DNA of 64,000 nt from Camarhynchus parvulus (taxonomy: Eukaryota; Chordata; Aves; Passeriformes; Thraupidae), in the NCBI RefSeq assembly GCF_901933205.1, contig NC_044585.1:4278001-4342000 (forward strand). Reading direction: 5' to 3'. The position numbers and the translations under genes were made by a program. The notes beneath the pieces are model-generated. The model saw only the letters and a list, made by a program, of their open reading frames with translations, was not told the DNA's origin and did no database searches. Positions 28,630 through 37,600 of this stretch are shown in pieces. Numbering within the stretch: the stretch's first letter is position 1; every line of letters starts with the position of its first letter.

Positions 28630-31600
28630 TCAGGGGGTGGAGAAATGGATGACCCTGAACTCGGTGAGCAGGGCCACGCACAGGAACAGCAGGTAGGAGG
28701 CGATGAGGCAGACGCCATAGGGCTGTCCCAGCTGGAAGCACTGCGCCGGCACCGTCACCAAGGAGAACACCAGGCTCAGCCCCAGCGCCCCGGCCAGCAC
28801 CCACACCAGGGGGCTGTCAGGCTCCAGCTGTGGGGAGAGCAGGGTGATGAGGGGTGACAACGGCTCCTGCTGCCAGCCTGGCCCGTGTCACCATGTCACC
28901 ACAGCCTTACCTTCACCAGCGGCTGGCTGCTGGTCATCTGCAGCAGGCAGCCCAGCCCCACGCCGACCAGGATGTCTGGAGCACGTTCAGGATGGACACA
29001 CAGCACTGAGCCCATCCCTCTGCCCCCCCATCCTCCTCCTTCCTGCACGGCTGAAGCATTCTCTGTGCTGAGTGCCACCCTGAGCACTCGAGGAGAGGCT
29101 TCACCCAAAACCCACTCAAGCGAGGCACAGCCCCCTCCTTCCCTTTGTAAAATCCCAAATCTGCACGCTCCAGCCCAAACTCCCGCCCAGCTGGGGCAGC
29201 TGTGGGGACAAGGGGGGTCCTGTCCCCACAGCTGTGGGTCCTGTCCCCACACGGGGGTGCTGCTGGCTGTGTCTCTGCCCCTCCCAAACCCCTCACTGTC
29301 CCCTTGCACTGTGGGAACACTGCGGGCTTTGCCAGCGTTGGAGGGACTCTGGAATGGATCCCAGCTCCTCTCCAGGGATCCCACAGCACAAAGGGCTCTC
29401 CTGGGCTGTAGGCAGGGAAACTTGGGCAGCTCCTGCCCCAGGTGGCAGCACCCTGGCCCTGGCATGCTCAGGATACTGAAGATGATGCCCCCGAAGCAGG
29501 CGGAGAAGGCCATGCGGGGATAGCCCTGCCGGGCCATGGTGAGGTCGGAGAAGGTGTCTGTGGAGGGACAGAGGAGACCTGGGGCATGGCAGGGGCACCC
29601 CAGCGTGTGCCAGGGGCACTGGGAGCTGCAGAGCCCTCACCCCCGATGCTGTTGCCCCAGGCCAGCAGTGTGAGGCCCAGCACGGTGTTGCTGAGCTGGA
29701 AGATGATGCCCAGGGTGCGCAGGATGTTCACCAGCTCCGTGGCTGCGGCGTTGATCCACATGGCGCTGGCCAAAAACCCAAGGAAGGCAAACACCTGATG
29801 GGAAAAGGAGCAAGCTGGTCCCTGTGTGCATCCCTGCACACCTCCTGGCATCCCTCCTGGGACTTGGGAACTGGGAGAGAGCTCCAGCTTCCTGCTCTGC
29901 CCCAGGACTCCCAGCCCAGTCTGGAGCAGGCTGTGCTGGTCCCTGGTGGGTGCTCAGGGCTGGGGGACACCTTACACAGTGGTACTTGGGTGGCTCCTCA
30001 TTGCTCGTGGTGATGAAGATGATGAGGGCCAGGGCAGAGGCAACCAGTGTGACCAGTGCCCAGACTGGGAAGATGCCCTGGATCTGGTAGAGCCCATCTG
30101 CACATGGTGGGGAGAGGAGGGACAGAGAGGCTGGGACAGGATCCCACCAGGCTTGAGGTGGAGGTAAAGCCTTGTCAGCTAAAGCCACCTCACCCTACAC
30201 CCCCACAGAGTTGCTCCCCTCTGTGCCTCAGTTTCCCCAGGCAGGCCAGGCCTGCTCCATTTTCCCCCCAGGACCTGGATGCTGGTGGGCCCAAGCCCCC
30301 CAGCCTTGTCAGGGTGTATGCAGCTGCAAACACAGCCTGGCTCTCCCCTGCCCATCCCTCCTCCCCACAATGGGGAGCCAGCTCTGATAGGCTCCTGCAG
30401 TCCCCAGGGCTTTGGTGGCCTCTCAGTCCTGTCCCTTCTGCAAGCTGGGACTGCCGCAGGCTCTTACAGGCGCCTGACTTCAGGGTGAGGACGCAGAGCA
30501 GGGGGCTGGTGAGGATGTGCAGGCAGTTGAGGGGTCTCTTCCAGTTCAGGTCATCCTTGTCAGGGTCCACAACAGGAACGGTGAGCAGCAGCACCAGCTC
30601 CACAGGCACCTGGCACAGGGGACACGCACCTGGGACACCCTGTGAGGTGCCCCATGCCCTGCTCCCAACCCCACTGCCCCTGCCCCAAAGCCCCAGGGCA
30701 CAGAGCCCCAGGGGCCAGCAGGGATGGGGATGTCCCTTGGGGGGCTCCTCCTGGCTCCTGTTGCCCCTTACTCACCCTGAAGGCCTTGAAGAGCCGCCAG
30801 TACCAGGGCTTCCTCCTCCACTTGCGGCAGTCCAGGGGGCTGAGGGCCGAGGTGAGGATGCGCAGGGAGCTCTCCCGGGAGGGCAGCAGGGGCCGGTACT
30901 CCTCCCCTGCGAGGGGCCACGGGGCTGAGCGGGCTGGGGGCTCCCTGGGTGTTCCCAGGGAGCTCCCCCTGCCCCACGAGCTGTCACCCCACGGGCTCAG
31001 TCACACCTGCAGCAGCCTGGGGGGAAACAGCCCCCTCTGGGACCCCCGAGGACAGAGCAGAGCCAGCCCTGAGCCCACAGGGTACAACGTACCATAGTCC
31101 CCGCTGTTTGTGCTCGAGGGCTCCGGCTCTTCCACATCTGTCGGCATCTCTGTGGGGAAGAGGAGAGGGCAGGGGCACTGGAAGGGCACCCCCATGCCCC
31201 GGGGGTCCCATCCCAGCGGGGCAGCCCTTACCTGGCTCCCAGGCTCCGGGAGGGGCCAGCCCGTCCCCGCGCTGCCGCCGGTGGATCCAGGTGCAGAGCA
31301 CCACGGTGAGCACGTAGAACACGTAGAGCCCCAGGTAACCTGAGATGGGGGAGTCATGGGGGAGTCACGGCACCCCCGGGCCGCTCCCACCGTGCCCAGC
31401 TCCCACAGCGCTCACCCAGAGCCTCTCCCAGCCTGATCCTGCCCAAGTAGAGCACCACGAAGGTGAGGAAGACGGCCACCATGTAGAAGATGACGTCCCT
31501 GAGGAAGGGCCTGGAGGCGGCCGTGAAGGGCTTGACCAGGGCAATGCCCCCGGCCACCACCGTGGTCACAAACACACCGGCACCTGCCAACACAGGGGGA

Positions 31601-33032
31601 CCCTCTTGGGACACGGGACATCCCACAGCCCCAAAATGTCACCCTGTGAGGACATGGCACTGGGGCTCCCTTACCAAAGATGGCCCCGATGGCCAGCCCC
31701 GCTGTCCGGGGGTCAGAGAAAGCCACCACAGCACTGAAGACATCAGGGGCCCCGTTCCCAAAGGCCAGGAAGGTGACACCATGGAGAGGGGACGTCAAGG
31801 AAAAGACCTGGTGTCCTCCTCCCCGTGGGGACACGGGTGCTGTGCACCTCTGTCCAGCGCCAGCACATGACCACTCGTCCCACTCCAACCTCCCAATGGG
31901 TTTCCCCTGGCACGGCACCAAGGGGACACAAAGTGACCCTGTCATGGCCACCTCCCCTGCCCTGTCCCCACATCCCTCCTGGCTGAGGGCCCTGTGACTT
32001 GCCAAGGATACTGCCACGTTGTGGGACAGCTTCAGGTTGGTGGAGATGGCTGATAAATTAGGGCAGAAGCTGGAAGGGCAGAAAAGGAGACACAGAGAGG
32101 TGATGGGGCTACGTGGGGCTCCTGCTCACTCTGGGGACAGTCCCCTCCTCTGCAGGGCCACTCACAACTTCTCTGCTGTCACACCGAGGATGATGAACAG
32201 GTACAGGAGCCAGAGAGCCTGTGGGGTCAGGAGTGGCACAGAGAGGGGTCAGTGGGGTCCCCATCACACATCCCCCCAGCAGAGCATTCCCAGCACCGCC
32301 CTTTCCTGTCCTTACATAGAGGGTGACAGCCAGGGGCAGCAGCCGGGGTGGGAAGACACAGAAAACCCCATCGAGGTAGTCGAGGAAGCCCCCGTCGATC
32401 CGGCAGTCGGGGTTGCTCCGGACGAAGTGGCACCACTCGGAGCTGTTGTACTCCCGAACCTCCCAGCACTGCGGAGCACAGGGGAGGGTGCTCGGCCCGG
32501 ACCCCCGAGGGGACACTGCCCCCCAAGCGCTGCCATGGGGCTGCTTTGGCGGGTCACTGTCAGCCCTGCCTCAGTTTCCCCACCTGTGCTACACGTGCGT
32601 GGGTGCAGGGCCGTGCGAGGGCCAGCAGAGGTGGAAACCCTTGCTCCCATCCCATCCATGTCCCCACACAGCCCACACCCACCCCGGGCCGTGGGAAAGC
32701 GCCGGCCTGGCAGGCACAGAGGTTTTCGGAGGAAAAAATCCGGGTGAGGAAATCCGGGCAGCGGAGGAAATCCGGGTGAGATCCCTGCTGCGATGGCGGG
32801 GACATGGCACAGGGATGGGACGGGACCCCACCACCCCGGCAGCACCCAAATCCCTCCCGGCGTCCCCCCCCCAAATCCCCAGACTTACATCCAGGCTCAG
32901 AGCATCCCCGCCGGGAGGGACCGTGTGCCCCGCGTCCAGCAGCAGCGGGGGCCCGGCTGGCAGCGCCCCGGGCAGGCTGAGCACCCCGGGCAGGCTGAGC
33001 GCCCCGGGCAGCCCCGCGGGCCCCTGCCCCAT
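28630..33032 (-). CDS. SLC8B1: Mitochondrial sodium/calcium/lithium exchanger NCLX
   Basis: Exchanges matrix Ca2+ for Na+ or Li+ across the inner mitochondrial membrane. Exons in transcript order: 33032-32889, 32468-32316, 32218-32166, 32069-32012, 31780-31675, 31583-31416, 31339-31232, 31149-31093, 30906-30776, 30609-30468, 30097-29976, 29794-29641, 29557-29477, 28975-28911, 28827-28630. They sum to 1740 nt, a 579-residue protein, close to the ~584 of the human one. Alpha-1 repeat: VTFLAFGNGAPDVFSAVVAF (exon 31780-31675). Alpha-2 repeat: LTLLAWGNSIGD then FSDLTMARQGYPRM (exons 29794 and 29557). The regulatory loop between them is acidic. After it comes LLLTVPVVDPDKDDLNWKRP (exon 30609). The N-terminus is Pro/Leu-rich, with a repeated LSLPG unit, so the targeting signal is poorly conserved; the start chosen is the ATG at 33032-33030. 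All introns are GT-AG except 32011-31781, which fits a U12-type intron ending in AT. Promoter side faces PLBD2. Confidence 0.96.
28976..29476 (-). other. SLC8B1: Probable second U12-type intron of SLC8B1
   Basis: The minus-strand donor GTATCCTGAG (29476 downwards) matches seven of eight bases of the U12 donor consensus and is poor as a U2 donor. ATCCTGAAC at 28993-28985 resembles the U12 branch site TTCCTTRAC and lies 10 nt before the CAG acceptor. The splice joins the codon A|AC of FNILVG within the alpha-2 repeat. Confidence 0.6.
31781..32011 (-). other. SLC8B1: U12-type (minor) intron of SLC8B1 with GT...AT termini
   Basis: The minus-strand donor is GTATCCTTGG (32011 downwards), a full match to the U12 5' splice consensus RTATCCTT. 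TTTTCCTTGAC at 31804-31794 is a full match to the U12 branch site. The branch A at 31795 is 14 nt from the intron end. Protein continuity (HNVA then GVTFLAF) requires the downstream exon to start at 31780, so the intron ends in AT, not AG or AC. The next exonic AG is far away. The only nearby upstream AG (CACCAG, ending at 31810) precedes the branch site and would insert nine residues. Confidence 0.85.
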
Positions 33033-33444: not shown

Positions 33445-33920
33445 GGGGTACCGGGGGAACCCCACCCGCGGCGCGGCCCCACCGTGTCGGCGCGGCCCCG
33501 CTCCGAGCGCCAGCAGCTGATCCCCGCCGGCCTCCCCGCCTTAAAGGGGCCGCCGCCCTCCGCCCTTAAAGCGACAGCGACACTCTCCCACACGGCCGGC
33601 CGGCCGCCCACAGGGGACACACGCGGCTCTGTGCTCCGGGCCGTCCCTCCGAGGCCGGGCAGCCCCCTGCGGGCTGCGCCCACCCACAGCCCCACACGGG
33701 TGAGCCCCTGAGAACGGGCGGGCTCAGCGCGGGATGTGTCCCGTGTGGGACAGAGCGGGCTGCACAGAGCCCGGGCCGGCGGTCACACACCCCGCACGGG
33801 ACCGGGCCCCTCTCCGCACCGGCGTCCCCAGCTCCAGGACACCCAGCCTCAGCCGTGCCCCGTGTGCCCTGTTTGTGGGGCGCAGGTTGGCCCTCACGGC
33901 CGGAGCCCCAACACCCTCAT

Positions 33921-34022
33921 GGGATTCAAAGAACCCGTGGGATTCAAAGAACTCAGGGGATTCAAAGAACCCATAGGATTCAAAGAACTCGTGGGATTCA
34001 AAGAACCCATAGGATTCAAAGG
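33921..34022 (+). repeat. 18-bp minisatellite, six copies
   Basis: The unit gggattcaaagaacccgt (with ctcgt, ctcag and ccata variants) starts at 33921 and repeats every 18 bp to about 34022. Because the period is a multiple of three, it reads openly as GFKEP or GFKEL repeats, but nothing supports translation. It lies ~650 bp upstream of the PLBD2 start. Confidence 0.9.
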
Positions 34023-34676: not shown

Positions 34677-37600
34677 ATGGCGGCCCCGCGGGCGCTGCTG
34701 GCGGCTTCGCTGCTGTCCCCCCTGCTGTCCCCGCTGCTGTCCCGCGCTGCTCTCCCCGCTCCTGTCCCCGCTCCTCTCTGCCGTCCCGGCCGGCGCAGCC
34801 CCGTCCCCCGTGCCCCGCAATGTCTCCGTGCTGCTGGAGCCCGGCTCCGAGCGGCTGCGCGTCCTCCCCGGCCGCCACCCCGGCGCCGTCGCCTGGGCCA
34901 GCCTGGATGACCGCATCCCGCACGTCGGGTATGACCCGGGCCGGACCGGACGGGACAGAGCCGAGCGGGAATGGGGTGGCCGCGGGGGAGCCGTGGTGGG
35001 TGGGGTGCCCCGTCCCAGCCGTGTCCGTGACCCCCCTGGCCGTGTCCCCACAGCTGGGCCTTCCTGGAGGTGGCCACCAACGCCTCGTACAATGACAGCC
35101 TGCAGGCCTACGCTGCCGGGCTCGCCGAGGCTGCCGTCACCGAGCAGGTAAGGGGGACCCCTCCAGGAACGCGTGCCCTGGTGGCTCCCCGGGCTGTCCC
35201 CGGCGGTGACAGCCTGCCCTGTCCCCCAGCTGATGTACATGCACTGGATGAACACCATGGTGGGCTACTGCGGCCCCTTCAAGTACGAGAGCGAGTACTG
35301 CCAGAAGCTGCGCGGCTACCTGGAGGCCAACCTGGCCTGGATGGAGGAGCAGATGGAGAAAGGGCGTGACACCGAGTACTGGCACCAGGTGAGGATGGGG
35401 AACCCCCACCAGGGGAGCCCCCTGGGTCCTCCTGGGCCTTTAACCCAGAGCACAGCACAGGACAGCGAGCTGTCCTGGCCCAGCTCCAGGTGGGATGACA
35501 GGGACGTGGTCATGCTCCTTCCTGGGGTGAGTAGAGGTGACTTGTGACTTTCTCCTTGCCAGAGCCTCGCATGCTGCAGTTGGGGTGCACAGGAGGTGGC
35601 TTTATCACTCTGAGCTGTGGGTGCTGAGTCATGACCTTGCTGACAGTGACACTTCCCCCCTGTGCCTCTGCAGCAGCACTGAGACCCAACTGATCTGCTC
35701 TGTCCCCTGGGGGAATGAGGGAGCCTGTCCCCCAAAAGCTGCCAGCCTGCCTCCTCGCAGGAGCCGGGTGCCAGCTCTGTCCCCTGTCCCCAGGTGCGCC
35801 TGGCCCTGCTGCAGCTGAAGGGGCTGGAGGACAGCTACAATGGGCGCCTGGACTTCCCCAGGGGCAGGATCACCCTGGCACCCTTTGGCTTCCTGTGAGT
35901 TCCTTCTCAGAACCAGGGGAGAGTGTTGGGGGTTGTCCCAGGGTTTGGAGTGCTGTGGGGACAATTCCTGCGTGTCCAGGAGCAGCCAGTTCTATTCCCA
36001 GTCCACCTTTTCTGGGCATTTGTGTTCTGCTGCTGTGGCAGGTCGGAGCCAAGGCAGGTTGTCCTCTTCCCCACCCCGTTCCCCCCACAGCCCCTGCCTC
36101 GGTGCTCCCCCTTCCCTCCCTGCTCATGCTACCAGGGTGCTGCCAGCACAAGTGCCTGCCCTGGGGTGTGGTGGAGAGGACAGACAGACAGAGAGCTCTG
36201 AGCCAGCTCAGCTCCAGGCCTGGGGCATCCCTCACCTGACATCTTATGCCTTGCTTCCCCCCAGGCTGCTGCAGTTGGGGGGTGACCTGGAGGACCTGGA
36301 GTCTGCCCTGAACCGCTCCTCCCCTCAGCGTGTGCTGGGCTCGGGCTCCTGCTCGGCCCTGGTGAAGCTGCTGCCGGGCCAGCGGGACCTGCTGGTGGCC
36401 CACGACACCTGGAGCTCCTACCAGGCCATGCTGCGCGTCGTCAAGAAGTACACGCTGCCCTTCCGCGCCTCGGCCGGCGGTGCGTGGGCTGTGCTGGGGG
36501 GGCTGCGCCCCACAGCCCCCCTCTGATGCTCTGCATCCCCCCTCCAGGCAAGTCCCAGATCCCTGGGAGCATCCAGGTGTTCTCCTCCTACCCCGGCACC
36601 ATCTTCTCCATGGATGACTTCTACATCCTCAGCAGCGGGTTGGTGAGTGGGTCTGCTCCTCGGGCACCTCCCCCCGGCCCTGCTGCCCTCCCCATTGCTC
36701 CCTGCCCTGCAGGTCACGCTGGAAACCACCATTGGCAACAACAACCCGGCCCTGTGGAAGTACCTGGAGCCGCGGGGCAGCGTGCTGGAGTGGCTGAGGA
36801 ACATCGTGGCCAACAGGCTGGCCCGCAGCGGGCCCGAGTGGGCCGCGGTGTTCCGGCGCTTCAACAGCGGCACGTGAGTGGGGTGGGGATGGGGCCTGGA
36901 GGGATGGTGGTGCCTTGGGAGGCTGATCTACAGCAGGGTTAAAGAATAAAGTCGGGATTTATTAAAAGCCTCAATGAATACACCTTGGGCAGCACAAGAG
37001 CCCAGCCAGGGCTGCACCCAAGATGAACCAAAATGGTCACAAAGTGCATGACCGGTCATGGGGTCTCTCACCTTGATCAGTTCTGCTCCATTTGCATCTT
37101 GGAGTTCATTGTCTACCTACAGCTTTAGGTTATGAAGTCCAATCCTTCTTGTTTTTCTCTCTTCATTCTGCCATTGTTTGTGCTCTTGGGCCTGAGGTTT
37201 GGATCATTTGTCCTTGGTCCCTAGATAGAGAAGGAATTGTTTTGTCTCCCTACTCTGTGCACAGAGCTCACCATCCCCTGATATGAAGCTCAGAACTACA
37301 CTAAAGCAGCACAGAATCTGAAAAATAGAAAAGCTAAAACTTAAGGCATCAGTGGGATGGGATGGGATGGGATGGGATGGGATGGGATGGGATGGGATGG
37401 GATGGGATGGGATGGGATGGGATGGGATGGGATGGGATGGGATGGAGGGTGCCCAGGCTGCCAGAGGGATGCATTCCTTGCTCTCCATGCCAGGTACAAC
37501 AACCAGTGGATGGTGGTGGACTACAATGCCTTCACACCGGGCAGAGCAAGCCCGGCGCCGGGCGTGCTGACAGTGCTGGAGCAGATCCCGTGAGTGGCTC

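Follow-up and report, generated by a model that had tools for sequence, protein, structure and literature searches.

Evidence for a U12-type intron with GT-AT ends in the SLC8B1 gene of Camarhynchus parvulus

Intron 4 of SLC8B1 in Camarhynchus parvulus is, with very little doubt, a real minor-class (U12-type) intron that begins with GT and ends with AT. A sequence-only reading of this DNA had proposed a genuine U12-type intron with these ends, and the analysis described here strongly favours that proposal over all others. The finding is not an artefact: the intron is a new member of the known but rare GT-AT minor introns, and it is unusual in its age. What is added here is the apparent tetrapod-wide depth of the non-canonical 3' end, a likely contrast with teleosts, and the steady harm that this splice site does to annotation.

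Results

Gene structure and splice signals of intron 4

SLC8B1, which encodes NCLX, the mitochondrial Na+/Ca2+ exchanger, lies on the minus strand of the window (the whole 64,000-nucleotide stretch that was analysed), with a coding span at 28630..33032 that comprises 15 exons and encodes 579 amino acids (Pfam PF01699). The model was 100% identical to P0001, annotated as the mitochondrial sodium/calcium exchanger protein of Camarhynchus parvulus, and thus the intron 4 junction is already in use in the existing annotation of this species. Exon 4 (32012..32069) ends AACGTGGCA at 32012, giving the protein sequence ...KLSHNVA, and exon 5 (31675..31780) starts GVTFLAFGNGAPD within the alpha-1 repeat, with the DNA reading GGTGTC at 31780. 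Intron 4 (31781..32011, minus strand) is 231 nt long, in phase 0 and open in frame through all 77 codons; it starts GTATCCTTGG and ends TTTTCCTTGACGTCCCCTCTCCAT, and exon 5 opens GGTGTCACC. The other 13 introns of the gene all end in CAG (13/13), and 12 of these 13 have ordinary U2-type donors (GTAAG, GTGAG or GTACG), the exception being the intron at 29476-28976. An intron position shared between the alpha-1 and alpha-2 repeats was considered and dropped, since the two introns lie some residues apart in the alignment.

The 5' splice site of intron 4, GTATCCTT (32004..32011, read from 32011 to 32004), matches the U12-type pattern [AG]TATCCTT, and the branch site, TTTTCCTTGAC (31794..31804, read from 31804 to 31794), is of the TTCCTTRAC kind. 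Both had been described as matches to the minor-spliceosome consensus, and their sequences and coordinates were confirmed. The 3' end follows 13 nt after TTTTCCTTGAC, directly before exon 5 and at the edge of the optimum of 11-13 nt given in an excerpt of PMC3584512. In this one genome the intron ends CCAT, so that its last dinucleotide (31781..31782) is AT. Positions -20 to -4 of the intron are 82% pyrimidine, a stretch that overlaps part of the branch motif.

The pattern [AG]TATCCTT occurred once on the two strands of the window, at 32011, the end of exon 4. A first-order simulation expected 1.4 occurrences anywhere in the window, so the position of the match is informative and not the number. 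At local composition, the probability of GTATCCTT given GT was approximately 8e-5, and that of TTCCTTRAC in the 13 sites before exon 5 was approximately 5e-5. An Rfam search of the window returned no matches.

The reading frame had been said to force the AT end, and this was borne out. Every alternative AG or AC end near exon 5 shifts the frame, lies upstream of the branch site or removes conserved residues, and NCLX chains from solved structures aligned without a gap across KLSHNVA|GVTFLAFGNGAPD. Sliding the junction by one base is formally possible, and would yield TA-TG, which are worse ends. The decoy acceptor CACCAG (31808..31813) lies directly 5' of 27 nt (31781..31807) that encode VFSLTSPLH and that are exonic in many bird records using the decoy; its end is at 31808, and the position of 31810 given for it earlier was incorrect.

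Two tandem repeats were observed elsewhere in the window. A perfect repeat of TGGGA (18.6 copies) occupies 37353-37445, near coding pieces that we take, from human gene order, to be PLBD2. The other, at 33916-34021 between SLC8B1 and this gene, has an 18/36-base unit with about three copies of 36 and 92% matches.

The intron end recorded in protein records

Three protein searches (the best 120 of 1275 matches, and the best 120 of 908 twice) gave 256 distinct listed proteins, which were sorted by rule, and by eye where the rule failed. In 159 of the 256, HNVA was joined straight to GVT. Extra residues before GVT ended in H in 89 listed records, in Y in one and in E in two, and a further record, P0167, lacked VA and carried no insert. 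The remaining four were unusable, two being garbled (P0069 and P0109) and two lacking the exon (P0110 and P0116). These four are records from Tympanuchus, Ara, Bambusicola and Anas that are faulty at the intron 4 junction, and are further signs of a splice site that defeats prediction programs.

The extra residues are translated intron, and their last codon therefore records the intron end. H is encoded by CAY and Y by TAY, so the intron ends in AT or AC in these records and not in AG, although the translation does not separate CAT from CAC. The 159 contiguous records, in which the junction is correct, are uninformative about the last intron base. The 89 listed H records comprised 66 named birds, 22 non-birds and P0127. 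The 22 non-bird records spanned 17 genera among the matches listed (nine mammal, six squamate and two frog), and the sole Y record was from a bird (P0026), which brought the listed bird records with H or Y to 67. The comparison of this intron in other birds, reptiles and mammals, which had been put forward as a check on the finch intron, could be made through translated intron, and it gave AT or AC in the H and Y records. In two of the searches (each the best 120 of 908) the query insert itself ended in H, which favoured such records; a Q or E at that place would have cost only a few bits, and two E records did appear among the matches listed.

The fairest sample was provided by 48 listed records that share the name 'NCLX protein, partial'. 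Insert residues were present in 47 of these 48, 46 by rule and one (P0100) by reading, and the one contiguous record, Eudromia P0081, counts against the pattern. Among 63 listed bird inserts, the last residue was H in 62 and Y in one, the penultimate residue was L in 62, and the third and fourth residues from the end were variable (P/S/T/L/H/V and S/C/T/F/P, respectively). Because the penultimate L is nearly fixed in birds, the constancy is not limited to the last codon. S-L-T, which the branch site encodes, was also nearly fixed in these inserts (S in 60, L in 63 and T in 60 of 63). With a few S and T variants allowed, it preceded exon 5 by exactly four residues in 67 of the 67 listed H records outside the non-bird set, and both frogs had the same spacing.

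The donor was recorded in a similar way. Reading continued past HNVA into V-S in 19 of the 256 listed records, namely ten bird records, one of which is the garbled P0069, eight non-bird records and P0127. The non-bird records, which read V-S-F, were from Varanus (two), Gekko, Ovis, Bos, Callithrix, Zalophus and Elephantulus. V is encoded by GTN, so V-S fits a GTATCCTTT/G donor, where an AT donor would yield I or M. P0076, the one listed record with I after HNVA, carries the nine-residue decoy insert and does not record the donor.

Teleost records

Among 99 records that were new in one of the listings (the best 120 of 908) and came from fishes wherever a species name was given, 96 were contiguous, one was P0167, and two had inserts ending A-E (P0245 from Kryptolebias and P0219 from Collichthys). 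These fish-like records were mostly from spiny-rayed fishes, which the query favoured, with gar, shark, coelacanth and lungfish absent. E is encoded by GAR, which is consistent with an AG end, and in P0219 S-L-T, as expected from a translated U12 branch site, lies a few residues upstream of the insert end. The GAR codons of these two records suggest that teleosts probably keep the AG end. A separate annotation slip was observed in six lizard and fish records (P0124, P0166, P0185, P0192, P0203 and P0213), in which the ALWLLYLF exon is skipped and replaced by VR... or VS....

Transcript hints and the second U12-like intron

Four records in which NVA is joined to GVT derive from contigs. P0005 (577 aa, contig of 2586 nt, 97% to Parus major) and the bird-like P0052 (539 aa, contig of 1966 nt) come from contigs shorter than the 4403-nt coding span in the finch, and for this reason are best read as spliced cDNA. 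The lizard-like P0113 (585 aa, contig of 4505 nt) and P0148 (590 aa, longest contig of 4961 nt, 78% to Ambystoma) may also be spliced transcripts, a weaker case since these contigs are similar in length to that span. The NVA|GVT junction is probably also used in the RNA of Camarhynchus parvulus itself.

The sequence-only reading had anticipated that the intron could easily be mis-annotated as a frameshift or a nine-residue insertion. Nine-residue insertions were found in other bird records, and one record from the same finch translates the whole intron. This record, P0042 (UniRef, Geospiza parvula), contains an exact 77-residue translation of intron 4 and then also enters intron 13, so that exactly the two minor-type introns of SLC8B1 are treated as coding sequence in it. 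The pattern fits either poor handling by prediction programs or real retention. Intron 13 (28976..29476, minus strand), a second U12-like intron, is 501 nt long, in phase 1 and of the GT-AG type (GTATCCTG...CATCCTGAACGTGCTCCAG), with donor GTATCCTG, a branch-like site CATCCTGAAC and a 3' end of CAG. In nine of the 256 listed records, which include bird, mandrill and fish, S-I-L follows GGIIF, as GTATCCT would give.

Discussion

A splice at the decoy would have exon 5 start at 31807, after CACCAG, and add VFSLTSPLH to the alpha-1 repeat. That start keeps the frame open and the nine-residue insert is present in many bird records, but the inserted residues translate the branch site, and mammals, squamates and frogs have different inserts of different lengths at the same point. 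The solved NCLX chains and the presumed cDNA contigs have no insert, nor does P0001, which is from the same species and equal to the model. The sequence upstream of CACCAG is purine-rich and the donor does not fit GTRAGT; we regard a real exon start at 31807 as very improbable. Even less credible, to the point of being extremely improbable, is a normal AG end masked by a sequencing or assembly error or by a private polymorphism. The DNA was read from one genome only, yet CAY or TAY stands at the same codon in 67 named bird records and, outside birds, in 22 records from 17 tetrapod genera among the matches listed. Since the A-pyrimidine end is common to so many tetrapod records, this comparison of sequences indicates that the AT end of the finch intron is not a sequencing error.

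GT-AT is the reverse complement of AT-AC, and the plus-strand ends are formally AT...AC; the same confusion is described for unstranded fly RNA-seq in a portion of PMC4528330. However, the plus-strand ends read ATGGAGAGG...GGATAC, which holds no U12 donor, and the conserved protein is on the minus strand, which leaves an AT-AC intron of a plus-strand gene a vanishingly small probability. A less remote proposal, though still an unlikely one, is that other tetrapods mostly have GT-AC and that GT-AT is a variant of the finch or of songbirds. H and Y codons cannot tell T from C, and CAC|GG contains a CpG that may decay to CAT|GG. Against this, GT-AC is called disfavoured in an excerpt of PMC3584512, for which reason T rather than C is expected in other tetrapods, and a passage of PMC4176328 describes a 5' G as compatible with a 3' G or T. 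The non-AG end of intron 4 (AT or AC) is probably old and tetrapod-wide, as the translated inserts suggest.

U11, U6atac and U12 pair with the motifs of minor introns. In intron 4, U11 and then U6atac would pair with GTATCCTT, and U12 would pair with TTTTCCTTGAC. A short distance from the branch site would be the main determinant of the 3' splice site, with the end fixed by position, and with selection of this kind the last intron base need not be G. The minor spliceosome would then join GCA to GGT, giving NVA|GVT. An excerpt of PMC3584512 describes linked recognition of the U12-type donor and branch site, and contact of Urp (ZRSR2) with the 3' end without U2AF.

Compared with U12-type GT-AG introns, the commonest minor class, SLC8B1 intron 4 has the same GTATCCTT donor, TTCCTTRAC branch site and short distance from branch to end, but it ends in AT and not in AG. 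The description of GT-AT as very rare agrees with the recognised rare class of minor introns in passages of PMC4176328 and PMC8280824. The former summarises mutational and database work in which a U12 5' G can join a 3' G or T, and the latter, the CENATAC paper, lists GT-AT among the G-type minor introns of human cells. Intron 4 shares termini and class with these GT-AT/GT-AN introns; it differs in that its non-AG end was traced across tetrapods by protein-level read-through, and the gene is not named in those passages. According to an excerpt of PMC10639083, about 3.8% of orthologous minor introns in animals have non-canonical ends. The BANP GT-GG site described in part of PMC4176328 is likewise a non-canonical 3' end, kept in most vertebrates with AG in fishes, but it is GG and not AT and is an alternative site; the likeness drawn here concerns its 3' end. 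A literature search, supplements excepted, found no paper linking SLC8B1 to U12-type or minor introns, the single match for SLC24A6 with U12 being unrelated to judge by its title and the opening of its abstract, and SLC8B1 may already be in some list of human GT-AT introns.

The two teleost A-E records, set beside the tetrapod inserts, suggest a switch between AG and A-pyrimidine, probably placed between teleosts and the most recent ancestor shared by frogs and amniotes. Its direction was probably from AG to A-pyrimidine, the tetrapod end having arisen from an AG end such as teleosts seem to keep. A GT-AT end fixed before crown tetrapods would be about 350 million years old. It is conceivable, if rather unlikely, that the AT end was fixed at that stage and has been held by selection, with a weak and slow 3' end setting the amount of exchanger made from a gene with two minor introns. 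If this were true, the loss of AG would be a working part of the gene and not a tolerated defect.

For annotation, the intron is the source of a recurrent error, in which translated intron stands beside the ion-binding alpha-1 repeat in 90 of the 256 listed NCLX-type proteins. The same error provides a general means of recovering intron ends, which are recorded in mis-annotated proteins. SLC8B1 intron 4 would offer a well-delimited natural system for probing the 3'-end requirements of the minor spliceosome, as a single orthologous minor intron that ends in A-pyrimidine in tetrapods and probably in AG in teleosts.
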